Positions 956-34,490 of a stretch of DNA of 34,490 nucleotides are shown one piece after another. Where the stretch lies: the NCBI RefSeq assembly GCF_023264855.1, contig NZ_JAHFUW010000053.1:1-34490 (forward strand), given 5' to 3'. The DNA comes from Herbiconiux sp. (GTDB lineage Bacteria; Actinomycetota; Actinomycetes; Actinomycetales; Microbacteriaceae). A program made the translations under genes and the position numbers. Numbering within the stretch: position 1 is the first letter of the stretch; every line of letters begins with the position of its first letter. Below the pieces are notes generated by a model, which did no database searches, was not told where the DNA came from, and worked only from the letters and a program-made list of their open reading frames with translations.

Positions 956-1117
956 CGTCTCAGGCCGTACCCAACGACCCAAGGTGAGCGTGTGGCCGAG
1001 GGATGCGACCGTCAGGCCGCGTCCCTCGACCGCGCGCTCACATGTCGCGCTGCGCCGGGCAGGGACCGGCGCAGCCCGCGAGCGACGAGCGAAGCCCGGC
1101 GCCCGCGGCAGCTAGCA
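956..1117 (+). repeat. Dispersed three-hairpin intergenic repeat, copy A
   Basis: The copy starts at the box GTCTCAGGCCGTAC and runs to about GCAGCTAGCA. It has the same three hairpins as copies B, C and D: GTGAGCG/CGCTCAC enclosing CGAGGGA/TCCCTCG, then GCTGCGCCGG/CCGGCGCAGC, then a third stem of 12 positions at 1076-1087 and 1097-1108. In the third stem two base pairs have swapped relative to B-D (G-C to C-G and T-A to G-C) with pairing kept. The inner apical loop has one extra base (GTCA instead of GCA). The copy lies between hrpA and the MFS gene, in the same orientation as both. Spurious reading frames cross it; none looks like a gene. Confidence 0.85.
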
Positions 1118-1124
1118 CCCCAGC

Positions 1125-1130
1125 TAGACT
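1125..1130 (+). promoter_or_regulatory. Probable -10 box TAGACT for the MFS gene
   Basis: TAGACT lies 9 nt before the ATG at 1140 and there is no Shine-Dalgarno sequence in between. This fits a leaderless or nearly leaderless mRNA, though the spacing is longer than the 6-7 nt seen at other genes here. It abuts the end of repeat copy A. Confidence 0.4.
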
Positions 1131-1139
1131 TGTCTGCTT

Positions 1140-2348
1140 ATGAGCAGCTACACCTCCCTCCTCAAGACGCGCGGCGTCGCGCGGATCATCGCTGCTCAAC
1201 TCACCGCCCGTTTCCCGTTCGGGATGCTGTCGCTGGCGTTCCTTCTGCACATCGAGCACACCTACGACAGCTATGGCATCGCCGGGCTCGTGCTCGCCGC
1301 TCTGAGCATCGGGCAGGCGATTGCGGGGCCGGTCACCAGTCGGCTGATGGGGCGCTGGGGCATGCGCCCGGTCATCCTCGTCACCATGATCATCTGCGCC
1401 GCCGCCATCACGTGCATCGCGCTGTTCCCGATGGGGATCGCGGCCGACATGGGTGTGGCGTTCGTCGCCGGACTCACGATGCCGCCCATCCAGCCGGCCG
1501 TGCGCACCATCTACCCCAAGATGGTGAACTCCAAGCAGCTCACTCCCCTGTTCTCGCTCGACGCCTCGGCGCAGGAGATCATCTGGGTGCTCGGCCCGGT
1601 CATCACGACCTTCGTGTCGATCCAGATCGGCACCGTCTGGGGCATCCTGCTCGCCGTCGCGTTCCTGGTGGGCGGCGGCATCTGGTTCCTCTCCAGCCCG
1701 GAACTCGGGCGGGTGCGCATCCCACGGTCCAAGCGCAAGCTCGGCGTGGTGCTGAAGAAGCCGCCGGTTCTGCTGGCCACGATCGTGGGCTTCCTGCTCG
1801 TCGCCACCTGCGCCGCCATCGAGGCCGGCGTCGTGTCGACCTTCGGCGAAGGCGGCGCGGAAGCCGGCATCGTGCTCGCCATCTTCGCGGTCGGGTCGCT
1901 CGCCGGCGGTCTCTCGCTCGGCCACAAGCCGATCGGACCGTGGGCCCTCGCCCGCCGGATGGCGATCGTCTTCGTGGGAACGGCGATCGCCGCCGCCTGG
2001 CTGAACGTGTGGTGGCTGGCCATCATGCTCTTCATCGCCGGCATCGGTATCGCGCCCGCCCTCGCCGTGATGTTCGCGATCGTCTCGTCGAGCGTGCGCT
2101 TCAGCGACACCGCCGAGGCCTACGGCTGGGTCGGCACCGGTCAGCTGATCGGTGCGGCGGTCGGATCGGCCCTTGCCGGCTTCCTGATCGACGGCATCGG
2201 CTCGGTCGGCGCCTTCGTGGTGGCGGCGGTGCTCGCCTTCGTGGGCTTCCTGGTGCCACTGCTGGGCAAGCGCTTCCACCCCGACCTGCGCGGGCGCGAC
2301 GCCAGTCCGCTGCCCGACACGGAACCCGTCGACGCGATCACCGCCTGA
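1140..2348 (+). CDS. MFS transporter
   Basis: The product has 402 residues, the usual length of a 12-helix major facilitator. Hydrophobic stretches run along the whole protein. The segment GPVTSRLMGRWGMRPVIL near residues 62-80 matches the loop 2-3 signature of MFS exporters (a Gly-rich turn followed by the R-x-G-x-R/K-P type motif). The second half begins after a basic cytoplasmic loop, PRSKRKLGVVLKKPP, near residue 200. The C-terminus is hydrophilic. It most resembles small-molecule or drug efflux members; the substrate cannot be read from the sequence. The ATG at 1140 is preferred because the TAGACT hexamer lies just upstream and the first residues run directly into helix 1. The next gene on the strand begins 57 bp after the stop but has its own -10 box, so the two are probably separate transcripts. 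Confidence 0.8.
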   Translation: MSSYTSLLKTRGVARIIAAQLTARFPFGMLSLAFLLHIEHTYDSYGIAGLVLAALSIGQAIAGPVTSRLMGRWGMRPVILVTMIICAAAITCIALFPMGIAADMGVAFVAGLTMPPIQPAVRTIYPKMVNSKQLTPLFSLDASAQEIIWVLGPVITTFVSIQIGTVWGILLAVAFLVGGGIWFLSSPELGRVRIPRSKRKLGVVLKKPPVLLATIVGFLLVATCAAIEAGVVSTFGEGGAEAGIVLAIFAVGSLAGGLSLGHKPIGPWALARRMAIVFVGTAIAAAWLNVWWLAIMLFIAGIGIAPALAVMFAIVSSSVRFSDTAEAYGWVGTGQLIGAAVGSALAGFLIDGIGSVGAFVVAAVLAFVGFLVPLLGKRFHPDLRGRDASPLPDTEPVDAITA

Positions 2349-2350
2349 GG

Positions 2351-2377
2351 GGCCGCTCGCACTGCCCGAGCGGGGCC
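2351..2377 (+). terminator. Hairpin downstream of the MFS gene
   Basis: GGCCGCTCG (2351-2359) pairs with CGAGCGGGGCC (2367-2377) around a 7-nt loop, with two bulged G residues. It begins 2 bp after the MFS stop codon. No T-tract follows, so it may act as a weak terminator or 3' stabiliser rather than a classical intrinsic terminator. Confidence 0.4.
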
Positions 2378-2393
2378 GAGCGGAGCCGCGAGA

Positions 2394-2399
2394 GATAAT
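2394..2399 (+). promoter_or_regulatory. -10 box GATAAT for the aldo/keto reductase at 2406
   Basis: GATAAT ends 6 nt before ATG 2406. This is the spacing expected when transcription starts at or next to the A of the start codon, so a leaderless mRNA is likely. GGAG at 2401-2404 is too close to the ATG to be a good ribosome site. Confidence 0.5.
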
Positions 2400-2405
2400 C
2401 GGAGC

Positions 2406-3248
2406 ATGGTCTCCGCGCTCTCCCCGCTCCTTCCGCTCGTCGACGGCCGCAGCATCCCGCAGCTCGGTCTCGGCGTCTACAAGACGACGGATGCCGAGAG
2501 CGCCGACGCGGTCGACGTCGCGTTGCGCCACGGCTACCGCCTGATCGACACCGCGGCGATGTATCTCAACGAGCAGGGCGTCGGCGCGGGGATGCGGCGC
2601 AGCGGCCTCCCCCGGGAGGAGGTGTTCGTCACAACGAAGGTCTGGCATACCGACAACGGCTACGACAGCACGCTCCGCTCTTTCGACGAGAGCCTCGAAC
2701 GGCTCGGCACCGACTACGTCGACCTGTACATGATCCATTGGCCGGCCCCGGCGAGAGACCGCTACGTCGACACCTGGCGGGCCTTCGAGACGCTCGCCGC
2801 CGACGGCCGGGCGCGCTCGATCGGGGTCGCGAACTTCCACCCGAAGCACATCGAACGACTGCTCGCCGAGACGGTGACGGTGCCCGCGGTCAACCAGGTC
2901 GAACTGCACCCGTGGCTGCCGCAGGCCGAGGTGCGCGCGTTCGACGCGCGGCACGGCATCGTCACGCAGGCCTGGTCGCCGCTGGCCCGCGGCCACGTGT
3001 TCGACGCCGCACACGGCGGCGAGGTGCTCGCCGGCATCGGGCAGAAGCACGGCAAGACGGCCGCTCAGGTCGTGATCCGCTGGCACCTGCAGCTAGGCAA
3101 CGCGGTGATCCCGAAGTCGGTCACGCCCTCACGGATCGTCGAGAACATCGACGTCTTCGACTTCGAGCTGGATGCCGAGGACGTGGCGTTGATCGCGGGG
3201 CTCGAGACGGGCGAGCGTACAGGGGTGGACCCGGACGACCGCAACTAG
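2406..3248 (+). CDS. Aldo/keto reductase, 2,5-diketo-D-gluconate reductase type
   Basis: The 280-residue product has the full (beta/alpha)8 AKR pattern. The catalytic tetrad is visible as Asp48 (in LIDTA), Tyr53 (AMYLNE), Lys78 (VTTKVW) and His111 (MIHWP). The C-terminal half carries WSPLARG and the NADPH-binding run IPKSVTPSRIVEN. This places it in the AKR5-like branch, with DkgA/DkgB and related prostaglandin and diketogluconate reductases, which reduce carbonyl groups with NADPH in the cytosol. The physiological substrate cannot be named. The gene is the typical length and intact. It is convergent with a second, unrelated-branch AKR at 3514-4518, with repeat copy B between the two. Confidence 0.85.
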   Translation: MVSALSPLLPLVDGRSIPQLGLGVYKTTDAESADAVDVALRHGYRLIDTAAMYLNEQGVGAGMRRSGLPREEVFVTTKVWHTDNGYDSTLRSFDESLERLGTDYVDLYMIHWPAPARDRYVDTWRAFETLAADGRARSIGVANFHPKHIERLLAETVTVPAVNQVELHPWLPQAEVRAFDARHGIVTQAWSPLARGHVFDAAHGGEVLAGIGQKHGKTAAQVVIRWHLQLGNAVIPKSVTPSRIVENIDVFDFELDAEDVALIAGLETGERTGVDPDDRN

Positions 3249-3288
3249 GGCGTTGGGGGTCGCGTGGGTGGTTGCTCGTGGGTGACTT

Positions 3289-3472
3289 GTCGGGCTGTGT
3301 TTGTTGCCGGTCGCGCCGGGCTTCGCTCGGCGTGACCGGGCTGCGCCGGTCCCTGCCCGGCGCAGCGCGACATGTGAGCGCGCGGTCGAGGGACGCGGCC
3401 TGCGGTCGCATCCCTCGGCCACACGCTCACCTTGGGGCGGCGAGTACGGCCTGAGACTTCGGGTGCCGGTGG
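3289..3472 (-). repeat. Dispersed three-hairpin intergenic repeat, copy B
   Basis: This copy is on the minus strand between two convergent aldo/keto reductase genes. It matches copy C almost throughout and over a longer span: both share CCACCGGCACCC before the GTCTCAGGCCGTAC box and CACAGCC after the third hairpin. It can serve as the reference sequence: stem CGAGGGA/TCCCTCG, inner stem with GCA loop, second stem GCTGCGCCGG/CCGGCGCAGC, third stem CCGGTC...GACCGG with CGCCG/CGGCG inside. Confidence 0.85.
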
Positions 3473-3513
3473 AAGTGCTGTGCTGGCTGGGATGCCTGCG
3501 GGCCGACCGACGG

Positions 3514-4518
3514 CTACCAGCGGTCGTGGATGGCGTCTCGGAAGTAGCGGTCGTAGAGGTCTTTGACGTTGTCGTCGAGGCCTTCCGGCAGGGGGAGGGA
3601 GCCTGCGGCCGCGTTCGACTCCGCCTGGGCGCGGGAGCGGGCGCCGGGGATGACAGCGGAGACGCCGTCTTGGGCGGCGACCCAGGCGATCGCCGCCGCG
3701 GACGGTGCGACGCCCTCGGGCAGCAGGGAAGCGAACTCGCGGGCGGCGTCGATGCCCTGGGCGAAGTCGACACCTGAGAAGGTCTCCCCCACGTCGAACG
3801 CACTGCCGTCGCGGTTGTAATTGCGGTGGTCGTCGGCCGCGAACTCCGTGTTCACGGTGTACTTGCCGCTCAGCAGGCCCGAGGCCAGCGGCACCCGCGC
3901 GATGATGCCGACACCGGCCTCGCGGGCGGCGGGCAGCACCTTGTCGAGCGGCTTCAGGCGGAAGGCGTTCAGGATGATCTGCACCGTGGCCGTACCCGGC
4001 CGCGCGATCGCCGCCAGCGCCTCGGCGCAGGTCTCCACGCTCACGCCGTAGTTCGCGATCGCCCCCTCCTCGACCAGAACGTCGAGCGCGTCGTAGACCG
4101 CGTCGGTGGAGAACACGGGCGTGGGCGGGCAGTGCAACTGAACCAGGTCGAGCGTGTCGACACCGAGGTTCTGACGGGAGCGGTCGGTCCACGCCCGGAA
4201 GTTGGCGAGCGTGAACTCGGCGGGGTCTTGCGGCCCGCGCCGACCCATCTTGGTCGCCACCGTGATGCCCGACCGGCCGTTCGAGCCGCCCGCAGCATCC
4301 GGATTCTCGCGCAGGAACCGCCCGATCACCCGCTCGCTCCGGCCGTCGCCGTACACATCCGCGGTATCGAAGAAGGTGACCCCGGCGTCGACGGATGCGG
4401 CCAGCACGTCGAGCGCGGCATCCTCGTCGACGTCGCCCCAGTCGGCACCCAGTTGCCAGGTGCCGAGGCCGATGACGGAGACGGATCGGCCGGTACGGCC
4501 TAGAGTTCGCTGCTGCAT
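3514..4518 (-). CDS. Aldo/keto reductase, YajO/oxidoreductase Tas-like branch
   Basis: Starting at ATG 4516-4518 the product has 334 residues. The N-terminus reads RTLGRTGRSVSVIGLGTWQLG, the hallmark of the AKR11/AKR12-type branch. The catalytic residues are Asp51 (FFDTADVYG), Tyr56, Lys90 (ATKMG) and His129 (VQLHCPP). SGLLSGKYT and a C-terminal VIPGARS are also branch-typical. The frame stays open for 46 more residues upstream, but the internal ATG is chosen because homologous sequence begins there and a TAGGGT box lies 7 nt before it. It probably reduces small aldehydes or ketones with NADPH in the cytosol; the substrate is unknown. The gene ends inside the intergenic space holding repeat copy B and is a single-gene transcript as far as I can see. 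Confidence 0.85.
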   Translation of the reverse strand: MQQRTLGRTGRSVSVIGLGTWQLGADWGDVDEDAALDVLAASVDAGVTFFDTADVYGDGRSERVIGRFLRENPDAAGGSNGRSGITVATKMGRRGPQDPAEFTLANFRAWTDRSRQNLGVDTLDLVQLHCPPTPVFSTDAVYDALDVLVEEGAIANYGVSVETCAEALAAIARPGTATVQIILNAFRLKPLDKVLPAAREAGVGIIARVPLASGLLSGKYTVNTEFAADDHRNYNRDGSAFDVGETFSGVDFAQGIDAAREFASLLPEGVAPSAAAIAWVAAQDGVSAVIPGARSRAQAESNAAAGSLPLPEGLDDNVKDLYDRYFRDAIHDRW

Positions 4519-4525
4519 GTCTTCG

Positions 4526-4531
4526 ACCCTA
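4526..4531 (-). promoter_or_regulatory. -10 box TAGGGT for the minus-strand aldo/keto reductase
   Basis: Read on the minus strand, TAGGGT ends 7 nt before the ATG at 4518. No Shine-Dalgarno site of quality lies in between. This is the leaderless arrangement and decides the start codon. Confidence 0.5.
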
Positions 4532-4598
4532 GCCGGGTCGTGCGACACCGGCCCGGTTCCCGTGCCCGAGGGGAGCACGGGTATCCCCCTGCGCACGG

Positions 4599-4624
4599 AA
4601 AAGGGCCCCCGCGATGCGGAGGCC
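4599..4624 (-). terminator. Intrinsic terminator of the 64-aa gene
   Basis: On the minus strand GGCCTCCGC pairs with GCGGGGGCC (one G-U pair) around the loop ATC, and CCTTTTCC follows at once. It lies 42 bp after the stop of the small gene at 4666 and before the next minus-strand promoter at 4526. This is the best canonical terminator in the window. A second small stem, GGCCGG/CCGGCC, lies at 4633-4651 between the stop and this terminator. Confidence 0.65.
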
Positions 4625-4665
4625 GTCGTACCGGGCCGGACGAAACCGGCCGTCACTGCACGCGA

Positions 4666-4860
4666 TCAGTCGCGCAGGGACTCCTTGTAGTCGTTCTTGG
4701 CCTTGGTGGCGTCGCGCTCGGCTTTGGCCTTCTTCACTTCGTGCTCGGCCTTCGCCTCGTCGGCCTTGTCGCTGATGCGTTCCTTCGTGTCGTCGAAGGC
4801 CTCGCCGATCTTCTTGCCCGTGGCCTGCGCGGCATCCTTCGCGTCGTCGATGAAACCCAT
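4666..4860 (-). CDS. Small highly charged helical protein, CsbD/LEA-like composition
   Basis: The 64-residue product starts MGFIDDAKDAAQATGKK and continues almost entirely with Lys, Glu, Asp and Ala, without hydrophobic segments, Cys or Pro. The spacing suggests one long amphipathic helix or a disordered chain, as in CsbD-like and LEA-like stress proteins; I cannot assign it to a named family. The start ATG at 4858-4860 has a strong ribosome site, AAGGAGG, 6 nt upstream. A TACGGT hexamer at 4891-4896 (minus strand) could be its -10 box, giving a leader of about 24 nt. A good intrinsic terminator follows. The isolated, well-signalled unit suggests an abundant, possibly stress-induced protein; that is inference. 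Confidence 0.65.
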   Translation of the reverse strand: MGFIDDAKDAAQATGKKIGEAFDDTKERISDKADEAKAEHEVKKAKAERDATKAKNDYKESLRD

Positions 4861-4890
4861 GACAGCCTCCTTCAGTTCGTGGTGCTCAAC

Positions 4891-4896
4891 ACCGTA
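4891..4896 (-). promoter_or_regulatory. Possible -10 box TACGGT for the 64-aa gene
   Basis: The minus strand carries TACGGT about 30 nt before ATG 4860, leaving a short leader that contains AAGGAGG. No clear -35 was found. Confidence 0.3.
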
Positions 4897-5041
4897 CGAC
4901 GACCGCCCTCCCACCGCTCGAGGATTCCAGCCAGCTCCCAGGCGGCCGTCAGACGACGCGGAGCACCCCGCCGAAGCCTCGCCGCGATAACGAGCGGATA
5001 ACCATCCGGCCACATCCAGCCACCCTCCAGACAAGCGCCAA

Positions 5042-5047
5042 TACGGT
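5042..5047 (+). promoter_or_regulatory. -10 box TACGGT for the DUF4349 lipoprotein gene
   Basis: TACGGT ends 7 nt before ATG 5055 with no ribosome site between them. It supports the ATG at 5055 rather than the GTG at 5046. The space from 4861 to 5041 otherwise holds only the promoter of the small minus-strand gene; I see no other gene in it. Confidence 0.5.
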
Positions 5048-5054
5048 GTGGCAC

Positions 5055-6014
5055 ATGAGACGAATGATCCTCGCATCCGCCGTTGTCGCCGCCGCTCTTC
5101 TGCTCGCCGGGTGCTCCGCCGGCTCGTCATCGTCGTCGTCCGGATCGGGGCCGGTGCAGCTCGCGCAGCCCGATCAGGCCCCGAGCGACTCCTCGGCCGA
5201 GGGTGGTGTCGCGGGCGAAACCGCCGACGGCACGAAGCAGTCGGTCATCACCACCGGCTGGGTCACCATCACGGTCGACGATCCGATCGCCGCCGCTCAG
5301 GATGCGGTCGACCTGGTCGACTCCTTCGACGGCAAGATCGACTCGCGGTCGCAGCAGGTCGGCTCGGATGAGCAGAGTGCGAGCGCGCAGCTGACCGTCC
5401 GCATCCCGGCGAAGGATCTCGATGCCGCGATCGAGAAGCTCGACCAGCTCGGCACGGTCGACTCGGTCTCGCTGCAGTCCAGCGACGTGACCCTGCAGGT
5501 GCGGGATCTGGATGCGCAGATCACGGCCCTGAAAGCATCCGTCGATCGCCTGCTGGCGCTGGTCGACCAGGCCGCCACGACCGCCGACCTGGTGGAGCTG
5601 GAGACCGCGATCTCCGACCGGCAGTCGCAGCTGGACAGCCTCGTCTCGCAGAAGGAGTACCTGGCCGACCAGATCGACTACTCGACGATCACGCTCGACC
5701 TGGTGACCGCGGACACGATCCCCTCGGCGGTGCCCGGTGACTTCTGGAGCGGGCTGGCCACCGGCTGGGCCTCGCTCGGCGCGGCGCTGTCGGGACTGCT
5801 CGTGGTGGTGGGGGTGCTCATCCCCTGGCTGCTGCCGCTCGCGGTGATCGCCGCCGTCGTGGTGCTCGTCGTGGTGCTGGTGAACCGCCGCAAGACGCCG
5901 CCGTCCGGCGGAGCCGGTGGTCCTGGCGGCTCCGGTCGCGGTGGTACGGCTGGCCCCGCCGGTCCGGCTGGTTCCGGCGTCACGGGCTCCGGGGCAGCGA
6001 CCACCTCGCCGTAG
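5055..6014 (+). CDS. DUF4349 domain-containing lipoprotein
   Basis: The 319-residue product begins MRRMILASAVVAAALLLAGC, a lipoprotein signal with Cys20 as the lipidation site. A Ser-rich linker follows. The domain from about residue 70 to 240 has the DUF4349 pattern: a paired beta-strand unit (GWVTITVDDP, QLTVRIPAKDLDAAIEKLDQLG), then a coiled-coil stretch with DLDAQITALKASVDRLLAL and LETAISDRQSQLDSL, then IDYSTITLDLV. One transmembrane segment spans roughly residues 230-275 and is followed by a short basic run and a Gly/Pro/Thr-rich tail. The protein should sit on the outer face of the membrane with its tail inside. DUF4349 has no settled function. The neighbour on the right is a convergent family 3 glycosidase lipoprotein. 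Confidence 0.8.
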   Translation: MRRMILASAVVAAALLLAGCSAGSSSSSSGSGPVQLAQPDQAPSDSSAEGGVAGETADGTKQSVITTGWVTITVDDPIAAAQDAVDLVDSFDGKIDSRSQQVGSDEQSASAQLTVRIPAKDLDAAIEKLDQLGTVDSVSLQSSDVTLQVRDLDAQITALKASVDRLLALVDQAATTADLVELETAISDRQSQLDSLVSQKEYLADQIDYSTITLDLVTADTIPSAVPGDFWSGLATGWASLGAALSGLLVVVGVLIPWLLPLAVIAAVVVLVVVLVNRRKTPPSGGAGGPGGSGRGGTAGPAGPAGSGVTGSGAATTSP

Positions 6015-6043
6015 CACGTGGCGGCGCCGGAACGCGGCGGGCG

Positions 6044-7354
6044 TCAGAGCACGGCGTCCGGATGCTGGCGGAGCCAGAGTTCGCGGCGCAGCTCGAGGTC
6101 GCGTAGCACGGCGTCGTCGACGACCTGCGGCGGGATGGCGCCGGAGCGTACGGCGGCGGCGATCGCCGCGACGAGCGGGGGCATGTCGACGGCCGAGTTG
6201 TACAGCAGCAGGTCGTTGCCGGCGGCGACGGCGGCCACGGCGTTCGCCGTGCGGTCGGCGTAGGCCGGAATGCCGGAGCTCTCGAGCATCAGCAGGTCGT
6301 CTGTCACGGTCACCCCCTCGAAGCCGAGGTCGTCGCGCAGGATGTCGTGCCAGGGCGCCGACAGGGATGCCGGCTGCGCATCGACCGCGCTGTAGACCAG
6401 GTGTCCGAACATGACCAGCTCGGCTCCCGCATCGATGCCCGCCTCGAACGGCGGCGCATCCTGCTGCTGCCACTGCGCGAAGGGCAGCGCGGTCGTGGGC
6501 AGAGAGGTGTGCGAGTCGGCCGGCGTCTCGCCGTGCCCCGGAAAGTGCTTGAGGGTGGAGAACACGCTGCCGCGCTCGGCGTCGACGGCGGCGGCCACGC
6601 GCTCGCTCGCGGCGGCCGGATCGGTGCCGAGCACGCGCTCGTAGATGAACGAGGAAGGGTCGGCGGTCACATCGGCGACGACGCCGAAGTTCACGCTCAT
6701 GCCGGTGGATTCGAGCAGGGCGGCACGCTGGGTGAAGGCCTCGTTCGTCGCCTCGACCGGCGCACCCTTCAGCGTGTCGGCCGCAGCGAAACCGTCGTCC
6801 CCGAGCCGGGCGACGATGCCGCCCTCCTCGTCGATGGCGATCAGGGTTCCGAGCCCCTCGCAGGTCTGCAGCGCCGCGGCGAAGGCCGCGGTCTGGCTGC
6901 TCGGGCCGGGCACGTTGTCGCCGAGCAGCAGCACGCCCGCCGCCTGGTTGGCGGCGAGGTAGGACTGCACGGCCGCGGGATCCGCACCCGGAACGTGCAC
7001 GATGAACATCGAGGCGATCTTCTGCTCGAGCGTCATCGTGCTCAGCCTCATCGAGGCGTACAACCGGATGCGCTCGGCCGCGGAGAGCACCGGGAACGCG
7101 CCGCGCTCCCGGGCCTCCCGAGCAGCGGATGCCGTGGCCCCGGCCGAGCCGCTAGTCGCGGTCGCCGCCCGGTTCGCCAGGTCGCCCTTCGCAGCATCCG
7201 TCGGCCCGGTGCACCCCGCCAGGACGGCGCCGGTCAGCAACGCGCTCAGCCCCGCCGCCGCCAGACGGCCGCCGCGGCGCGGGGTGGGGGCCCCCCGCTC
7301 TCCGGGGCCCGAGGGCTCCCGGAGGCGCGCGAGGACGAGACGTCTCAGAGCCAC
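6044..7354 (-). CDS. Glycoside hydrolase family 3 lipoprotein, NagZ-like
   Basis: The 436-residue product opens with a basic stretch, then LLTGAVLAGC, a lipobox with Cys48. The GH3 barrel covers about residues 100-430. IDEEGG (174-179) and KHFPGHG (269-275) followed by DSH (280-282) are the signatures of beta-N-acetylhexosaminidases of the NagZ branch; the Asp-His pair acts as general acid/base there. The nucleophile is probably Asp352 in VTVTDDLLM. Members hydrolyse terminal N-acetylglucosamine from muropeptides or chitin-derived sugars. Unlike Gram-negative cytosolic NagZ, this one is exported and lipid-anchored, as in other Gram-positive bacteria. The GTG start at 7354 lies 3 bp after the stop of the upstream acyl-CoA-dehydrogenase-like gene, so the two are probably cotranscribed although their roles do not obviously match. 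Confidence 0.85.
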   Translation of the reverse strand: MALRRLVLARLREPSGPGERGAPTPRRGGRLAAAGLSALLTGAVLAGCTGPTDAAKGDLANRAATATSGSAGATASAAREARERGAFPVLSAAERIRLYASMRLSTMTLEQKIASMFIVHVPGADPAAVQSYLAANQAAGVLLLGDNVPGPSSQTAAFAAALQTCEGLGTLIAIDEEGGIVARLGDDGFAAADTLKGAPVEATNEAFTQRAALLESTGMSVNFGVVADVTADPSSFIYERVLGTDPAAASERVAAAVDAERGSVFSTLKHFPGHGETPADSHTSLPTTALPFAQWQQQDAPPFEAGIDAGAELVMFGHLVYSAVDAQPASLSAPWHDILRDDLGFEGVTVTDDLLMLESSGIPAYADRTANAVAAVAAGNDLLLYNSAVDMPPLVAAIAAAVRSGAIPPQVVDDAVLRDLELRRELWLRQHPDAVL

Positions 7355-7357
7355 GAC

Positions 7358-8515
7358 CTAGTCCGGAACCGGACCGAGCAGCGCGTTCGCCACCGTGGAG
7401 TGCGCGGACTCGCCGTCGGACGGATGGAAGATGCCGGCGACGACGTCGCGGTAGAGCCGGCCGAGCTCGCTGGAGTTGGCGATCGCCGAGCCGCCGGACA
7501 CCCGTAGTGCCAGGTCGACGACGACCCGCGCGCTCTCGGTCGCGCGCACCTTGAGGCCGACGAGCTTGGGGAACCAGGCCGCGCCGTGGGCGGCCTGCGC
7601 ATCGACGTCGGCGGCGAGCGCCTCGATCTGCGGCGGCATCGCGTCGTGCAGGATGCCCGCCTCGGCGACCTTCCAGCGGATGTCGGGGTCGTGAGCGTAG
7701 GGCCGGCCGCCCGCTTTCATCGAGGTGCGGCGGTGGGCGGCCTCGACGGCGAGCTCCACGGCCCGCTGACTGATGCCGGTGTACACGGCGGCGACCAGCA
7801 CCTCGAAGTTCGAGAAGATGCCGAAGATCAGCGGGTCGGGGCTCGGCCCCACCGGCAGCCGCCGGAACACGCGAGACGCCGGCGCCTCGGCGCCCTCGAG
7901 GATCGTGGTGTTGCTCTGGCTGGCGCGCATGGCGAGCGTGTCCCAGTCGTGCACCGTGGTGACCCCCGCCGTCGACCGGTCGAGGAAGGCGTGCACGAGA
8001 GCCGGGGCATCCGGATCGGAGTCGTCGCGGCCGAACACGCCGAGCCGCGTCCACACCGGCGAGAGCGACGTGAAGATCTTGGTTCCGGTGAAGCTGTAGC
8101 CGCCGTCGGCCAGCGGATGCGCCTGGGTGCGCGAGTCGAACAGCACCAGGTCGTTGCCGGCCTCGCTGTTGCCGAACGCGAACACCTCACCCGCCACCGC
8201 GTCGTCGAGCACCCAGGCGAGCGAGTCGTCCCCGCGATCGGCGAGCACCTTCGCGACGCCGGTCCACACCAGATGCATGTTGATGGCGAGCGCCGTGGCG
8301 GGCGCCGCGGTCGCGAGCCGCGTCTGCTCCCGAGCCACCCGAGCCAGCCCGAACCCCAACCCACCGGCCTCCACCGGTGCGAACATCCGCAGATACCCGA
8401 CCGCGGTCAGCTCCCGCAGATCCTCCTCCGGAAACGTGTTCTCCCGATCATGAACACCAGCCCGAGACCGGATGCGCGCCAGCAGAGCATCATCGAGAAC
8501 ACTCACTTCGGCCAT
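7358..8515 (-). CDS. Acyl-CoA-dehydrogenase-family flavoprotein
   Basis: The 385-residue product has the acyl-CoA dehydrogenase fold order: an N-terminal helical part with LRMFAPVEAGGLGFG (an aligned version of the P-x-x-x-GG-x-G motif), a middle beta domain with FTGTKIFTSLSPVWTRLGVF and WDTLAMRASQSN, and a C-terminal helical part ending in VSGGSAIANSSELGRLYRDVVAG. The middle motif WDTLAMRAS resembles the W-x-x-x-G-M-R-x-T motif of acyl-CoA dehydrogenases. Relatives include true dehydrogenases and FMNH2-dependent monooxygenases such as SfnB and DszC; the sequence does not let me choose. A GTG at 8521 is also in frame, but ATG 8515 has a TAGCAT box 6 nt before it. The gene is followed by the GH3 gene at 3 bp distance. 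Confidence 0.75.
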   Translation of the reverse strand: MAEVSVLDDALLARIRSRAGVHDRENTFPEEDLRELTAVGYLRMFAPVEAGGLGFGLARVAREQTRLATAAPATALAINMHLVWTGVAKVLADRGDDSLAWVLDDAVAGEVFAFGNSEAGNDLVLFDSRTQAHPLADGGYSFTGTKIFTSLSPVWTRLGVFGRDDSDPDAPALVHAFLDRSTAGVTTVHDWDTLAMRASQSNTTILEGAEAPASRVFRRLPVGPSPDPLIFGIFSNFEVLVAAVYTGISQRAVELAVEAAHRRTSMKAGGRPYAHDPDIRWKVAEAGILHDAMPPQIEALAADVDAQAAHGAAWFPKLVGLKVRATESARVVVDLALRVSGGSAIANSSELGRLYRDVVAGIFHPSDGESAHSTVANALLGPVPD

Positions 8516-8521
8516 GCGCAC

Positions 8522-8527
8522 ATGCTA
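8522..8527 (-). promoter_or_regulatory. -10 box TAGCAT for the acyl-CoA-dehydrogenase-like gene
   Basis: On the minus strand TAGCAT ends 6 nt before ATG 8515. This is the leaderless spacing and favours ATG 8515 over the in-frame GTG at 8521. Confidence 0.5.
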
Positions 8528-8565
8528 CCCACGGCCCCTGACAGTCCCCTCCCCACCAAACACCC

Positions 8566-8750
8566 CCACCGGCACCCAAAGTCTCAGGCCGTACCCGCCG
8601 ACCCAAGGTGAGCGTGTGGCCGAGGGGTGCGAGCGAAGCCCGCGCCCCTCGACCGCGCGCTCACATGTCGCGCTGCGCCGGGCAAGGACCGGCGCAGCCC
8701 GGTCACGCCGAGCGAAGCCCGGCGCGACCGGCAACTAACACAGCCGGACA
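8566..8750 (+). repeat. Dispersed three-hairpin intergenic repeat, copy C
   Basis: The copy lies between two minus-strand genes but reads on the plus strand. Hairpin 1 uses 8608-8614/8658-8664 (GTGAGCG/CGCTCAC), 8621-8627/8645-8651 (CGAGGGG/CCCCTCG) and an inner stem at 8629-8643 with loop GAA. Hairpin 2 uses 8672-8681/8689-8698. Hairpin 3 uses 8699-8710/8720-8731. Relative to copy B, A-T in stem 1 has become G-C and an inner C-G has become G-C, both with pairing kept. The rest of 8522-8800 holds only the promoter of the gene to its left. Confidence 0.85.
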
Positions 8751-8800
8751 CACACGTGACACCTCTAACGCACCATCCCAACGCGCAACCCCCAACGCAC

Positions 8801-9844
8801 CTACCCGCGCGCTTCCAGCTCTCGTACCCTCGGGATCACCTGCTCGGCGAAGCGCTGCATCTCCGCGAGGTGCGGCGAGAACTGCAGCAGCAGCAGGTCC
8901 ACTCCAGCCTCGGAGAACTCCACGATGCGACGCGCCACCTGGTCGGGCGTGCCGATGAGCTCGGGGCGCAGGCCCCGGTTCGACACCGAGTAGTCGCGCA
9001 GGTCGACCTTCTGCTCGAGCTGCGACTTCGAGATGAAGTCCTGGTACGACTCGTAGGCTGCGCCCTCGCGCACGTCGGTGATGCGGTCGAGCTCGGCCTG
9101 CGCCTCCTCCTCGGTGTCGCGCACGATCGCGTACGCGGCCATGCCGAAGGCCGAGAACGGGGTGTCTGAGACCGCGGCACGTCGGGAGGTGAGGTCGGCG
9201 ACCTTGGTGCGCAGCTCATCCGGGGTCCCACCGTGAGTGACGTAGGCGTCGGCGAACCGCGCGATCGCCTGTTTGCCGCCTTCGCTCTCGCCGCCGGCGT
9301 AGATGACGGGCTGCACCTGCGGCTTCGGCTCGAGGTACGTGTTCTCGATCTCGTAGTAGTCGCCCTTGAAGCTGTAGGGCGTCTCGTTCCAGAGGCCCTT
9401 CAAGATCTCGACGAACTCGAGGCTGCGGCGGTACCGGTCGTCGTGCTCACTGAAGATGCCGCCGTACTGCCGCGCCTCCTCGGCCCACCACGCCGACACC
9501 ACGTTCAGCGTGAAGCGGCCGCCGGAGATGTCGTCGATCGTGGCCGCGCGTTTGGCCGCCACGGCCGGCAGGTGGTAGCCGGGGCGGATGGCCGTGAGGA
9601 TCTCGATCCGCTCGGTGACGGCGGCGACCGCCGCGGCCAGCTCCCAGGCGTCCAGGCTCGGTGCCGACTGCCCCTTCACGTCATTGAGGTTCAGCTCGGC
9701 GATCAGGGTGACGTCGAAGCCCACGCGCTCGGCGGTCTGCGCGATCTCCTTCACGTGCTGGAACGTCACCGGGGTGTGCTCGTCGTCGACGTTGCGGAGC
9801 CAGCCGCCGAAAATGGGCGTCCAGTACCCGAAGCGCATAGTCAT
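8801..9844 (-). CDS. LLM-class flavin-dependent monooxygenase
   Basis: The 347-residue product has the luciferase-like TIM-barrel pattern. It begins MRFGYWTPIFGGW after two extra residues, contains KRAATIDDISGGRFTLNVVSAWW (the conserved region that ends the core barrel and binds FMN phosphate), then EHDDRYRRSLEFVEILKGLW, and later PVIYAGGESEGG. These match the alkanesulfonate monooxygenase (SsuD) and dimethylsulfone monooxygenase branch, which use reduced FMN from a separate reductase and O2. The likely role is release of sulfur or carbon from an organic compound; the substrate is not fixed by the sequence. No flavin reductase is seen nearby. The start ATG at 9844 has a TAGACT box 6 nt upstream. 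The neighbouring flavoprotein at 7358-8515 could be a partner, although repeat copy C separates them. Confidence 0.8.
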   Translation of the reverse strand: MTMRFGYWTPIFGGWLRNVDDEHTPVTFQHVKEIAQTAERVGFDVTLIAELNLNDVKGQSAPSLDAWELAAAVAAVTERIEILTAIRPGYHLPAVAAKRAATIDDISGGRFTLNVVSAWWAEEARQYGGIFSEHDDRYRRSLEFVEILKGLWNETPYSFKGDYYEIENTYLEPKPQVQPVIYAGGESEGGKQAIARFADAYVTHGGTPDELRTKVADLTSRRAAVSDTPFSAFGMAAYAIVRDTEEEAQAELDRITDVREGAAYESYQDFISKSQLEQKVDLRDYSVSNRGLRPELIGTPDQVARRIVEFSEAGVDLLLLQFSPHLAEMQRFAEQVIPRVRELEARG

Positions 9845-9850
9845 GGGTCG

Positions 9851-9856
9851 AGTCTA
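9851..9856 (-). promoter_or_regulatory. -10 box TAGACT for the LLM monooxygenase gene
   Basis: On the minus strand TAGACT ends 6 nt before ATG 9844, without a ribosome site between. A second in-frame ATG two codons later is less well placed. Confidence 0.5.
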
Positions 9857-9900
9857 GGAGCGCCCGATCCGGCCCCCCGACCAGCGTTACGCTGCTTTAC

Positions 9901-10058
9901 TGCCGGTCGCGCCGGGCTTCGCTCGGCGTGACCGGGCGGCGCCGGTCCCTGCCCGGCGCCGCGCGACATGTGAGCGCGCGGTCGAACGACCCGGCCTGCG
10001 GTCGGGACGTTCGGCCACACGCTCACCTTGGGGCGGCGGGTACGGCCTGAGACTTTGG
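9901..10058 (-). repeat. Dispersed three-hairpin intergenic repeat, copy D
   Basis: This minus-strand copy is the most diverged in stem 1 and the most informative. The stem is CGAACG/CGTTCG in place of CGAGGG/CCCTCG, and the inner stem is CCCGACC/GGCCGGG in place of TGCGACC/GGCCGCG. Stem 2 has G-C where the other copies have T-A. All these changes keep the pairing. The third hairpin is as in copy B. It lies between two minus-strand genes. Confidence 0.85.
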
Positions 10059-10076
10059 ATGCTCGAACATACGCGA

Positions 10077-10144
10077 CACTTCGGGCGCTCGCCACGCGCC
10101 AGCATTTCGGGCGCTCGCCACGCGCTGGCACTTCGGGTGCTCGG
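10077..10144 (+). repeat. 26-bp tandem repeat, about 2.6 units
   Basis: Units begin at 10077, 10103 and 10129 (the last partial). The shared core is TTCGGGCGCTCGCCACGCGC. Units 1 and 2 differ at only a few positions. The words ACTTCGGGTGC in the last unit resemble the flank of repeat copy B (ACTTCGGGTGCCGG at 3456-3469), so the array may have grown from the end of a dispersed repeat. It ends just before the stop of the carbonic anhydrase gene at 10152. Confidence 0.75.
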
Positions 10145-16718: not shown

Positions 16719-16785
16719 GGGCGCGGCATCCCGCGGCCTCCAGCCCCCGCCGCTCCGTTCGGCCTTCCGCGCGGTTCTCGGGGCG

Positions 16786-16858
16786 GTTCGCTCCAGCGAG
16801 TCTCAGGCCGAGCTCGTGCACTATGGCAGAGGTTCGCTTCAGACTCGCTGGAGTGAAC
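16786..16858 (-). repeat. 73-bp palindromic element E1
   Basis: The ends are inverted repeats: 16784-16803 pairs with 16841-16860 with one G-T pair (core CTCCAGCGAGTCT/AGACTCGCTGGAG). The middle carries CTCGTGCACTATGGC. A second copy, E2, lies 1 kb away in opposite orientation at about 90% identity. Together they flank the nuclease-like gene. The element contains GTCTCAGGCCG, the same 11-mer that opens the A-D repeats. The remainder of 16706-16955 holds the two promoters only. Confidence 0.85.
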
Positions 16859-16943
16859 CGCGTTCGAAATCCGTTCTCCACAGGCCCCGAATCGGCTCTC
16901 CACAGTTCGCCGGACCGACACACGAGCACTGCCAGCCGGCAGG

Positions 16944-16955: not shown

Positions 16956-17876
16956 ATGCACGTTCCCGAAGTCCTGTCCCGGATCGGTGGTGTCGCGAGC
17001 ACTGCGCAGTTGGCGGAGCACGGTTGCGGTGCGGCCGAGATCACACGCGCCGTCCGTGTCGGCTCGGTGCTGCGTGTGCGTCGTGGGTGGGTGGCCTTGC
17101 CGTCGGCGCCGGCCGCTGCCATCGCCGCCGTACGAGTCGGCGGCACCGTCAGCTGCATCTCGGTCCTTCGGCCGCTCGACGTGTGGTGCGTGCGTGATCG
17201 ACGACTGCACGTGCGAGTCGGCTCCTCGGCCGGCACCCTCGCATCGCCGTCTGATCGCCGAGTGCCCCTCGAGAACGCGGCGCGGCGCGGCATCGTGATC
17301 CACCGCTCCCGCTGGCCCGCGAGGAGCCCGACAGCAGGCGCACCCGCCGTCGATGACCTGGCAACAGCTCTCCGGCATGCTGTCGTGTGTCAGGGGCGGG
17401 ACGATGCCGTCGGATCGCTCGACTCCGCGCTCAATGGCGGGCTGATCCGGCTGTCCGGCCTCCGCGAGGCATTGAGCCCGTTGCCACTGAGTTATCGGAG
17501 ACTGCTCGATCTCGTCGACGGACGAGCGGACTCGGGCGTCGAGACGAAGGCGCGGCTCGGCCTGCGCGCCGTGAACATCGCCTGCCGCACGCAGGTCGCG
17601 ATCCCCGGAGTGGGAAGCGTCGACCTGCTCGTCGGCGAAAGGCTTGTGATCGAGCTCGACGGTGAAGAGTGGCACGCCGGAAGCGAGGCCTTCGCCGAAG
17701 ACCGGCGGCGCGACCTGCTTCTCGCCGCGCTCGGCTACCGCGTGCTCCGGCTCACGTACCAGCAGGTCATGTATCAGTGGCCGTCCGTGCTGGCCACGGT
17801 GGGCGGGCTGATCGCCGCGCGCGAGCACCACTGGCCCCGCGTCGGCGGAGGCAGCAGTTCACTCCGGCGAGTCTGA
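16956..17876 (+). CDS. AbiEi-antitoxin-like N-terminus with DUF559/Vsr-like nuclease domain
   Basis: The 306-residue product begins with a winged-helix-like part (VLSRIGGVASTAQLAEHGCGAAEITRAVRVGSVLRVRRGWVALP), typical of AbiEi_4-type N-termini. The C-terminal part from about residue 194 has ETKARLGLR, then VDLLVGERLVIELDGEEWH and AFAEDRRRDLLLAALGYRVLRLTYQQVM. This is the DUF559 pattern, distantly related to Vsr and other PD-(D/E)xK nucleases, with Glu196, Asp223 and Glu233/Asp235 as candidate catalytic residues. Such proteins are often many-copy in Microbacteriaceae; their role is not known, and no toxin partner is adjacent here. The last residues, SSLRRV, and the stop codon are supplied by palindrome E2, so the original C-terminus may have been replaced. 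Confidence 0.75.
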   Translation: MHVPEVLSRIGGVASTAQLAEHGCGAAEITRAVRVGSVLRVRRGWVALPSAPAAAIAAVRVGGTVSCISVLRPLDVWCVRDRRLHVRVGSSAGTLASPSDRRVPLENAARRGIVIHRSRWPARSPTAGAPAVDDLATALRHAVVCQGRDDAVGSLDSALNGGLIRLSGLREALSPLPLSYRRLLDLVDGRADSGVETKARLGLRAVNIACRTQVAIPGVGSVDLLVGERLVIELDGEEWHAGSEAFAEDRRRDLLLAALGYRVLRLTYQQVMYQWPSVLATVGGLIAAREHHWPRVGGGSSSLRRV

Positions 17877-17929
17877 GGCGAACCTCAGCCATAGTGCACG
17901 AGGTCGATCTGAGACTCGCTGGAGTGAAC
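17857..17929 (+). repeat. 73-bp palindromic element E2
   Basis: Arms 17857-17874 and 17912-17929 pair with one G-T position. Read on the minus strand it matches E1 with seven differences over 73 bases and no gaps, by hand alignment. The TGA of the nuclease-like gene (17874-17876) lies in its left arm. The sequence between 17930 and 17995 shows no gene. Confidence 0.85.
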
Positions 17930-17995
17930 GGCTCTCGCACCGTGAGCCGGGTGGCTGTCCCGGCTTGCGAGCGGTGCGGCGGCCGGGCGGTGCTT

Positions 17996-33498: not shown

Positions 33499-34490
33499 AT
33501 GGGAAGCCTCACCGCTCGTCATCGTCCACCCATCGCCACCAGAACCACCAGAACCACGCCGTTCGTGAGGTCGGGGGCGGTGGGTCTGACTCTCGTCGTC
33601 GCTACCGTGTCGATCGCCTGGCTCGGCTCCCAGTCGGCGAGTGCGGCCGCGACATCCGTCGATCTGGGCACCGCCGGCTCGTACTCGGTGCTGGGCGGCC
33701 AATCCGTCACGAACACCGGGCCGAGCGTGCTCTCCGGTGACCTCGGGGTGAGCCCGGGCACCGCCGTGAGCGGGTTCCCACCCGGCCTCGTCGGGGGCGC
33801 CAGCCATGTCGCCGACGCTCAGGCTCTTCAGGCCCAGAGCGACCTCGTCGTGGCCTACGACGCCGCGGCAGGTGAGGCACCCGACGAGAGCATCGCGGGC
33901 GACATCGGAGGAACCACGATCCTCCCCGGCGTCTACAAGGCCGACAGCTCGATCCTGCTCACCGGGCCGCTCACCCTCGATGCCCAGGGCGATCCGGACG
34001 CCGTCTTCGTGTTCCAGATCGGTTCGAGCCTGACCACCGCGACCTCGAGCAGCGTCGTCACGATCAACGGCGCCGACAGCTGCAACGTGTTCTGGCAGAT
34101 CGGGAGCTCCGCCACCCTCGGAACCTCCACCGCCTTCAAGGGCTCCATTCTGGCGCTCACCTCCATCAGCACCGGATCGGGAACGACCATCGACGGACGG
34201 GCCCTCGCCCGGAACGGATCGGTGACGCTGATCAACACCGTCTTCACCGACGCCTCCTGCACCACGACCCCGCCGACCACCGAACCCCCGGAGACCATTC
34301 CACCCGTGACCAACCCGCCGGTCACCAACCCGCCCGTGACGAACCCACCGGTGACCAATCCGCCGGTCACAAACCCACCCGTCACGAACCCGCCAGTCAC
34401 GAACCCGCCGGTCACAAACCCGCCGGTCACGAACCCGCCAGTCACGAACCCGCCGGTCACGAACCCTCCCGTGACCAACCTACCGGTCAC
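33499..34490 (+). CDS. Secreted DUF3494 (ice-binding type) protein, 3' end outside window
   Basis: The frame runs from ATG 33499 to the window edge, 330 residues and still open. A long Sec signal comes first: basic residues, a hydrophobic core (AVGLTLVVATVSIAWLG) and a likely cut at ASA-AT near residue 50. Residues about 52-250 are the DUF3494 domain: VDLGTAGSYSVLGGQSVTNTG, SGDLGVSPG, LPGVYKADSSILLTGPLTLD, VFVFQIGSSLTTAT, SCNVFWQIGSSATLG and GSILALTSI. This beta-solenoid includes ice-binding proteins that stop ice recrystallisation, but many members are adhesin-like with no proven ice binding. Two cysteines sit in SCNVFW and ASCTT and may form a disulfide. From residue 268 on come PPVTN repeats. 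The last visible residues, L-P-V-T, could be the start of a sortase signal. Confidence 0.85.
   Translation, partial: MGSLTARHRPPIATRTTRTTPFVRSGAVGLTLVVATVSIAWLGSQSASAAATSVDLGTAGSYSVLGGQSVTNTGPSVLSGDLGVSPGTAVSGFPPGLVGGASHVADAQALQAQSDLVVAYDAAAGEAPDESIAGDIGGTTILPGVYKADSSILLTGPLTLDAQGDPDAVFVFQIGSSLTTATSSSVVTINGADSCNVFWQIGSSATLGTSTAFKGSILALTSISTGSGTTIDGRALARNGSVTLINTVFTDASCTTTPPTTEPPETIPPVTNPPVTNPPVTNPPVTNPPVTNPPVTNPPVTNPPVTNPPVTNPPVTNPPVTNPPVTNLPV
34300..34490 (+). repeat. 15-bp tandem repeat encoding PPVTN
   Basis: Twelve units of Pro-Pro-Val-Thr-Asn start at 34300 and repeat every 15 bases; a thirteenth reads Leu-Pro-Val-Thr at the edge. Codon choice varies between units (CCA/CCG/CCC/CCT; GTG/GTC; AAC/AAT), so the protein repeat is kept while the DNA has drifted. 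It is a typical cell-wall-spanning stalk. Confidence 0.9.

Follow-up and report, generated by a model that had tools for sequence, protein, structure and literature searches.

Herbiconiux is a plant-associated bacterium. The window, i.e., the whole 34,490-nt stretch of Herbiconiux sp. DNA analysed here, contained a repeat with three hairpins in four intergenic places. The assembly with the window (G000; 4.37 Mb, 95% complete) was compared with 15 other Herbiconiux genomes (16 genomes in all).

The window copies and their family

The window coordinates were taken from a covariance model trained on 35 copies, and the hairpin limits from the columns of a plain MAFFT alignment (A2). Four long-type copies were recognized: (i) copy A (161 nt; 962..1122, plus strand), composed of 5′ arm (962-983), hairpin 1 (984-1041, GTCA loop), hairpin 2 (1050-1074), hairpin 3 (1076-1108), and tail (1109-1122), lay between genes encoding a DUF3418 protein and an MFS protein and ran in the same direction as both; (ii) copy B (3293..3452, minus strand), with hairpin 1 (3374-3430), hairpin 2 (3341-3365), hairpin 3 (3307-3339), and tail (3293-3306), was flanked by two convergent aldo/keto reductase genes; (iii) copy C (8586..8745, plus strand), with 5′ arm (8586-8607), hairpin 1 (8608-8664), hairpin 2 (8673-8697), hairpin 3 (8699-8731), and tail (8732-8745), was antisense to both an acyl-CoA dehydrogenase-like gene and a luciferase-like gene; and (iv) copy D (9889..10048, minus strand), with hairpin 1 (9970-10026), hairpin 2 (9937-9961), hairpin 3 (9903-9935), and tail (9889-9902), lay between a hexapeptide-repeat protein gene and that luciferase-like gene and was co-directional with both.

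All four copies were real, with model scores of 158-176 bits; six further window matches listed by the covariance model were partial, lay inside copies A to D, and were on the opposite strand. The opening GTCTCAGGCCGTAC box and the fixed order of the three hairpins, both described in the initial annotation, were recovered in the four-way alignment, and the GTCTC part of the box was variable, preceding AGGCC in 27/46 copies of G000. The eight double changes counted in the initial annotation were also present by eye: G-C to A-T, G-C to C-G at two pairs, and T-A to G-C in copy D; A-T to G-C and C-G to G-C in copy C; and G-C to C-G and T-A to G-C in copy A, each relative to copy B. Copy D additionally had one broken pair (A-T to T.T) and one one-sided change (T.G to C-G), which the initial annotation had omitted.

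A covariance-model search of the whole 4.37-Mb genome, as the initial annotation had proposed, assigned the window copies to a family of 46 copies (≥49 bits; four weaker matches of 26-33 bits were left out), and BLAST with a single copy as the query listed 42 matches. G000 also carried a second palindromic repeat family. The second model R2 gave 412 matches in 13/15 other Herbiconiux genomes (0-91 per Herbiconiux genome; counted at E ≤ 1e-5, not inspected singly); G001 and G009 had no R2 match, and G009 had one R1 match. The 113 other-species copies used below were drawn from the best matches with R1 scores of ≥43 bits and were not a random sample. Three stems were found in both length types: 147-161 nt in 35 aligned long copies and 137-141 nt in 50 aligned short copies. 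Alignments A3 and A4 were fitted by covariance model and thus lean towards the model; 43/89 and 23/136 rows, respectively, were removed as antisense, partial, duplicate, or lower-scoring matches.

The view that the repeat belongs to no named family held for RNA families: Rfam 15 gave no match in the window, and a search of four loci at E ≤ 1 gave a single 17-bit match, located outside the element. A described RNA was therefore rejected. No description of the Herbiconiux repeat was found in the accessible part of the open-licence literature.

Outside Herbiconiux, a family-wide model gave weak matches in nine genomes (E 7.5e-9 to 5.8e-4), and hairpin 2 plus the tail was the best-fitting part of the three weak matches that were aligned. 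Hairpin 2 and its loop recurred in eight other Microbacteriaceae genera, often adjoining stop codons; hairpin 2 with its loop is common to nine Microbacteriaceae genera in the sample. Genes were called by a custom codon-usage caller rather than taken from annotation, and at least one call beside a hairpin-2 core (at L227) looked doubtful.

Fold, strand, and loops

The covariation test, also proposed in the initial annotation, gave a signal above a phylogenetic null obtained by a custom tree-based script (not R-scape). Predicted base pairs made up 6/6 significant column pairs in the 35 long copies, 7/7 in the 46-copy alignment, and 13/19 in the 113-copy alignment, the other six being one Watson-Crick neighbor in the hairpin-3 stem and five in the hairpin-2 loop region; none of 500 shuffles matched any of five pair measures.

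Mispairs within the stems were biased by strand: GT 100 versus AC 4 and GA 7 versus TC 0 in the 35 long copies, and GA 198 versus TC 3 in the 113 other-species copies, in which GT (98) and AC (114) were both frequent. The strand read 5′-AGGCCGTAC...GGCAGCTAGC-3′ was the one whose fold was mainly kept. C.A/A.C mismatches were conserved in stem 1 and hairpin 3 and would read G.T on the opposite strand, so the strand signal was not uniform. The idea that the folded strand is the messenger of the opposing gene next to it was rejected: T.C and A.C would then be in excess, whereas the G.A counts showed the opposite in both copy sets, and the G.T counts did so in the long type but not in other species. 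Neutral palindrome repair was likewise rejected on loop and mismatch counts.

The loops obeyed a one-way rule. Among loops of 3-5 nt (one of 159 copies was dropped for want of an anchor, and hairpin 3 was scored in 146/158), GNA was found in 96/97 hairpin-1 triloops and 135/144 hairpin-3 triloops, and GNNA in 57/60 hairpin-1 tetraloops, of which 10 were GNRA. A small control of other intergenic Herbiconiux hairpins had no GNA and one TNC among 10 triloops, and one GNNA and one TNNC among seven tetraloops. The accessible part of PMC5815330 described d(GNA) triloops as stable, and more so with a CG closing pair. A fold kept on one strand and loops of the GNA/GNNA type rather than GNRA point to single-stranded DNA (ssDNA) more than RNA, and it is this loop rule by which RNA and DNA are told apart here; the conserved C.A mismatches do not fit this picture. 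ViennaRNA energies did not separate GNA/GNNA loops, GNA triloops being about equal to nearly all others.

Gene ends, shared junctions, and candidate enzymes

The 46 copies of G000 lay between convergent (24) or tandem (21) genes, with none between divergent genes and one unassigned. The background was taken from the window plus 49 loci, most of which came from other species and had, for the most part, been picked for holding the element: its element-free neighbor pairs were 53 convergent, 182 tandem, and 73 divergent, and its pairs with the element were 24, 22, and 2, respectively. The initial annotation had argued from inconstant orientation relative to genes; orientation was indeed variable in tandem pairs (nine co-directional and 12 counter-directional copies), but placement was far from random (24/45 convergent, none divergent). 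Where the opposing gene was the 3′ neighbor, the 5′ neighbor was convergent in 24/36 (G000) and 73/94 (other species) cases, compared to 106/288 background gene ends. The 3′ tail often overlapped the opposing gene's stop codon, and copies clustered at gene 3′ ends. Both neighboring genes were directed against the folding strand in 12/46 copies of G000. A head-to-head partner accompanied 50/113 other-species copies versus 2/46 in G000, and a 5′-arm partner lay close upstream in 13/159 copies. The GGCC arm was followed by TTTTT in 12/159 copies, and a simple T-run terminator was rejected on this count; the ATGTCGC linker and tail had no T run in the 35 aligned long copies.

The same junctions were occupied in several species, often by head-to-head pairs, and at least 17/46 junctions of G000 were occupied in another species, a pattern more in line with copies that stay in place for long than with copies that jump often. 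The best genome-mate was closer than the positional counterpart in 100/119 comparisons, although picking the best mate among many copies favors mates; with aligned letters only, G000 copies shared a median of 86.6% mutually versus 83.2% with 18 counterparts, so part of the gap reflected long versus short type. A copy thus resembles others of its own genome more closely than it does the copies found at its position in other species. Close counterpart sites (38/66 pairs kept, those differing by >4 nt being dropped) had eight double kept changes in eight element pairs. At site B, seven other Herbiconiux genomes had no R1 match and R2 scores of at most 17.8 bits; these relatives carried other sequences there. 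Neither a precise insertion site nor a target duplication could be fixed.

PF01797 (Y1, RAYT), PF07282 (TnpB), and PF00078 (reverse transcriptase) had no match in the 95% complete G000 assembly. PF01797 was matched in 1/16 genus genomes, namely G001, which had one hairpin-2 core and no R1/R2 match; reverse transcriptase was matched in G009, G001, and G007 only, the former two being those without an R2 match. RAYT/IS200 mobilization from within the genome and a TnpB-linked element were rejected by the absence of PF01797 and PF07282 from G000, and reverse-transcriptase spread by the distribution of its matches. The initial annotation had offered selection on the fold or copying through a structured intermediate: covariation above the null and the 0/500 shuffles supported this pair of options, whereas self-copying as such gained no support, these searches having found no enzyme and at least 17/46 junctions being occupied in another species.

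Explanations and likeness to known systems

We tentatively prefer, at somewhat under even odds, a REP-like, dispersed, strand-specific gene-end hairpin repeat that is spread or homogenized by an ssDNA process. The kept strand, given its GNA/GNNA loops, would be used as folded ssDNA that may become exposed during replication or transcription, and a putative cellular enzyme would recognize the fold and copy or convert the element between sites. Gene ends would be the main places where copies are tolerated, and transcription that comes from the other side is probably also impeded by the hairpins there. The main rival, which we consider possible but doubtful, is a transcription barrier at convergent gene ends, i.e., a terminator/insulator useful to the host: the folding strand would be convergent read-through RNA just before its antisense entry into the opposing gene, and transcription would be stopped there. 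It would account for the convergent enrichment, the continued occupation of junctions across species, the double kept changes at close counterpart sites, the GGCC-TTTTT copies, and the presence at L051 of a hairpin with runs of A and of T in place of hairpin 3. However, neutral tolerance of convergent spacers would also yield the placement bias, few copies have a T run, 12/46 copies have both neighboring genes against the folding strand, the loops obey GNNA rather than the GNRA rule of RNA, and R2 matches are absent from two genomes of the genus, G001 and G009 (one R1 match in G009).

The same loop rule also speaks against a structured non-coding RNA, each copy giving a small or 3′-derived RNA that would bind a protein; compensatory changes and strand-specific wobble pairs agree with it, but with no Rfam match and dozens of similar copies adjoining different genes, it seems improbable. 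Functionless palindrome maintenance, in which replication template switching would let one arm rewrite the other and mimic compensatory change, appears very improbable: whole stem blocks do change together (alignments, by eye) and G000 has another palindromic family, but arm copying would erase or invert the one-way GNA loops as well as the T.G and tandem G.A mispairs that have been kept. A new class is possible, though less likely than not: stop-codon-anchored Microbacteriaceae DNA hairpins whose sequence-specific ssDNA core, hairpin 2, would lie antisense at gene ends, would have grown into the three-hairpin form in Herbiconiux, and would be spread or homogenized by an enzyme that acts on ssDNA hairpins and differs from RAYT, TnpB, and reverse transcriptase. 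Sequence alone was enough to read the folding strand, the stop-codon anchoring, and, from the loops, DNA as the likely nucleic acid, and 46 copies, several hundred sister-species matches, and both occupied and unoccupied junctions make the dispersal and transcription hypotheses directly testable.

Integron attC sites have R and L boxes and the integrase IntI; bidirectional intrinsic terminators have a gene-end location, GC-rich hairpins, and a T run. The repeat resembled the latter in gene ends, GC-rich hairpins, and T runs in a few copies, but it differed in the rarity of such runs, its 160-nt conserved multi-hairpin body, and a fold kept mainly on one strand. The subterminal hairpins of IS200/IS605-type elements and of their non-autonomous derivatives are likewise strand-specific ssDNA with conserved mismatches (accessible part of PMC8266576), but G000 had neither PF01797 nor PF07282, and the ends of the repeat were not fixed.

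REP/BIME elements, in the accessible part of PMC3733652, are dispersed extragenic palindromes, often head-to-head, in mostly convergent or unidirectional spacers, and REPINs, by the sources accessible in part, are dispersed palindromes often in head-to-head pairs; the Herbiconiux repeat was similarly extragenic and multicopy, with convergent and unidirectional spacers and opposite-orientation pairs. It differed from REPs in size (about 138-161 nt with three hairpins versus a 20-40-bp palindrome), in the overlap of its 3′ tail with opposing stop codons, and, relative to GTAG-class REPs with their RAYT, in having no Y1 match in G000. No GTAG/CGTC tag was found at the foot of any of the three hairpins (alignments, by eye); read on its reverse strand, the 5′ arm of many copies contained CGTC at a distance of 7 nt from hairpin 1. 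It also had GTAC beside GGCC, which changes to GTAG if the arm has CTAC (CTACT in 20/159), and pairing there involves only a head-to-head partner. The phyla for which tagged REPs are named in the accessible part of that survey do not include the group of Herbiconiux, and its main text does not contain the word "actinobacteria" (PMC3733652). CGTC-class REPs likewise have no associated transposase (same part of PMC3733652); the Herbiconiux repeat bears on how palindromes without a transposase spread.

Copies and architecture of the repeat

The four intergenic copies of the initial annotation were confirmed as real by four-way alignment and covariance model, at window positions 962–1122 (plus strand, copy A), 3293–3452 (minus, copy B), 8586–8745 (plus, copy C), and 9889–10048 (minus, copy D). 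All were long-type members of a genome-wide repeat family: the genome-wide model search proposed there yielded 46 copies (matches scoring at least 49 bits) in the 4.37-Mb assembly, and BLAST with a single copy as query gave 42 matches in the same genome. The long type, about 160 nt in length (MAFFT alignment of 35 copies), displayed the 5′-to-3′ structure 22-nt 5′ arm (AGGCCGTACTCGACGACCCAAG)–hairpin 1–linker ATGTCGC–hairpin 2 (loop GCAGGGA)–hairpin 3–tail GGCARCWARCACAGC. The short type (136–141 nt; 85 of the 113 sister-species copies) had a reduced hairpin 1, and hairpin 3 was missing, or swapped for a different hairpin, in some copies.

About 2.8 units of a 26-nt tandem repeat (window 10072–10143) immediately adjoined copy D; elsewhere, a GTCTCAGG-bearing direct repeat lay upstream of a repeat copy (locus L004), and a Herbiconiux ginsengi locus (L192) harbored three tandem 5′-arm matches at 77-nt spacing. 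The window also contained (i) another dispersed palindrome, roughly 79 nt long, at 16783–16861 and 17854–17932, for which BLAST gave 56 matches genome-wide, often counting both strands of one place, and (ii) a 15/45-nt tandem array at 34269–34490, running to the contig end and probably lying inside a repetitive protein gene.

Pairing, loops, and strand asymmetry

In line with the compensatory stem changes claimed in the initial annotation, a covariation test above the phylogenetic background (tree-based null with substitutions per branch held constant; significance at E<0.05) gave six significant column pairs in the 35 long copies, all six being predicted base pairs. Under the same null, predicted base pairs made up 7 of 7 significant pairs in the 46-copy set and 13 of 19 in the 113 other-species copies, the remaining six comprising one Watson–Crick neighbour in the hairpin-3 stem and five pairs inside the exchanged hairpin-2 loop region. 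In a plain MAFFT alignment of the 35 long copies, 19 of 45 predicted pairs had kept double changes and 98.7% of cells were paired; none of 500 shuffles, which ignored relatedness, came up to the real alignment on any of the five measures used. At positional counterparts, with tandem G.A scored as broken, double kept, one-sided kept, and broken changes numbered 8, 11, and 12 for close counterparts (8 element pairs; mean flank identity at least 88%) and 173, 25, and 119 for more distant ones (30 element pairs); thus, element pairing was kept, though imperfectly.

The non-Watson–Crick pairs were one-sided between strands: on the element plus strand, G.T occurred 100 times versus 4 for A.C in the 35 long copies, and G.A 198 times versus 3 for T.C in the 113 other-species copies. 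In each of the three hairpins, G.A and A.G cells fell on adjacent pairs. Counter-signals, however, were seen by eye on the alignments: a kept C.A mismatch in stem 1 and a kept A.C or C.A in hairpin 3, two pairs under the loop, both being G.T if read on the opposite strand; A.C (114) and G.T (98) were about equally frequent in the 113 other-species copies.

In hairpin 1 (158 scored copies overall), 96 of 97 triloops were GNA; of the 60 tetraloops, 57 were GNNA (third position pyrimidine in 47 and purine in 10). Hairpin 3 had GNA in 135 of 144 triloops. Other intergenic hairpins in a small control did not follow this rule (GNA 0 and TNC 1 among 10 triloops; GNNA 1 and TNNC 1 among 7 tetraloops). 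For an RNA fold, GNRA loops would be expected. Stable d(GNA) triloops, better with a C-G closing pair, are described for DNA (PMC5815330). The loops therefore suggest that the fold would act as single-stranded DNA.

Gene-end placement, distribution, and turnover

With neighbours taken from our own gene caller, the 46 copies of this genome comprised 24 between convergent genes, 21 between tandem genes (9 co-directional and 12 counter-directional), none between divergent genes, and one with no called 5′-side gene; the 113 other-species copies (best R1 covariance-model matches of at least 43 bits) comprised 73 convergent, 36 tandem, 2 divergent, and 2 unassigned. Neighbouring genes with no element between them, counted over 430 kb of sequence from the genus, formed 53 convergent, 182 tandem, and 73 divergent pairs; relative to this background, the present genome showed a convergent excess (Fisher p 5e-6) and a divergent deficit (p 2e-6). 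The opposing-gene stop codon lay −20 to +15 nt from the model 3′ end in 93 of 159 copies, 37 of these stops falling within the conserved tail, and TAG was overused (54 of the 93 versus 101 of 311 background genes). A head-to-head partner accompanied 50 of the 113 other-species copies and 2 of the 46 here.

R1 matched 15 of the 16 Herbiconiux genomes; among 44 genomes from elsewhere, a single one matched, over 39 nt (E 9.7e-4). All 51 stretches from an exact pattern scan of an 84,980-species collection were titled Herbiconiux, 'Microbacteriaceae bacterium 3FA27C10', or 'Corynebacterium-like bacterium B27'. The hairpin-2 core CGCCGGGCRGGGACCGGCG was spread wider than the whole repeat: of 199 Microbacteriaceae genomes examined, 21 contained it, representing 9 of 85 genera with Herbiconiux counted, and the reversed CGCCGGGCRGGGACCGGCG control matched none of the 199. 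In an order-wide sample, one or two cores were present in 5 of 274 genomes outside Microbacteriaceae and none in the 22 other Microbacteriaceae members. An opposing gene ended 2–34 nt from the core in 14 of 26 core loci (2–12 nt in 12 of the 14), some loci overlapping and one coming from genome G001; the proteins ending there are presumably ordinary cellular ones (e.g., Era, peptide deformylase, and GlmM). Tandem cores were observed in loci L231 and L250 of genome G186 (five, 44-nt spacing) and locus L234 of G212 (two, 34-nt spacing).

The second covariance model, R2 (E≤1e-5), gave 46 matches in this genome and 91, 71, 43, 34, 33, 29, 25, 24, 23, 16, 15, 7, 1, 0, and 0 in the other 15. At least 17 of the 46 junctions were also occupied in another species; across all genomes, copy pairs with both flanks in common were in the same orientation in 66 cases and inverted in 67, and a single junction across six genomes held a lone copy on one or other side, or a pair. 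Of 119 comparisons, each setting the best of many mates against one counterpart, 100 placed the genome-mate closer than the copy at the corresponding position. In this genome, median identity among copies was 81.9% (nearest 92.5%) versus 60–85% to counterparts with gaps counted, and 86.6% (nearest 94.9%) versus 83.2% on aligned letters only; such similarity fits concerted evolution or repeated replacement. The copy B junction, between two aldo/keto reductase genes, gave no R1 match and at most 17.8 bits with R2 (in G002) in seven other species; in G004 and G008 (loci L085 and L086), it held several units of a different short repeat around GACTTGACACAAG.

Candidate mechanisms and comparison with REPs

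The reading considered most likely, albeit tentatively, is REP-like dispersal or homogenisation: the repeat would fold as single-stranded DNA, a putative enzyme would spread or homogenise the copies, and gene ends would be the places where copies are tolerated. Searches of this assembly for the Y1 transposase, TnpB, and reverse transcriptase families were negative. Ranked second, and possible if doubtful, is a transcription barrier against convergent read-through, a role that the repeat may play in addition to being dispersed. Two further explanations fit less well than dispersal and barrier: a regulatory RNA, which is unlikely, and a fold left as a template-switch artefact, which is very unlikely.

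Searches of open-licence papers listed no description of the repeat, and the Herbiconiux pangenome paper (PMC10011130) did not use 'transpos', 'insertion sequence', 'mobile', or 'palindrom' in its main text. The repeat failed the size, tag, and transposase tests and was therefore not classed as a REP, but it resembled REPs, as described in PMC3733652 and PMC8266576, in placement, pairing, and strand-specific folding.
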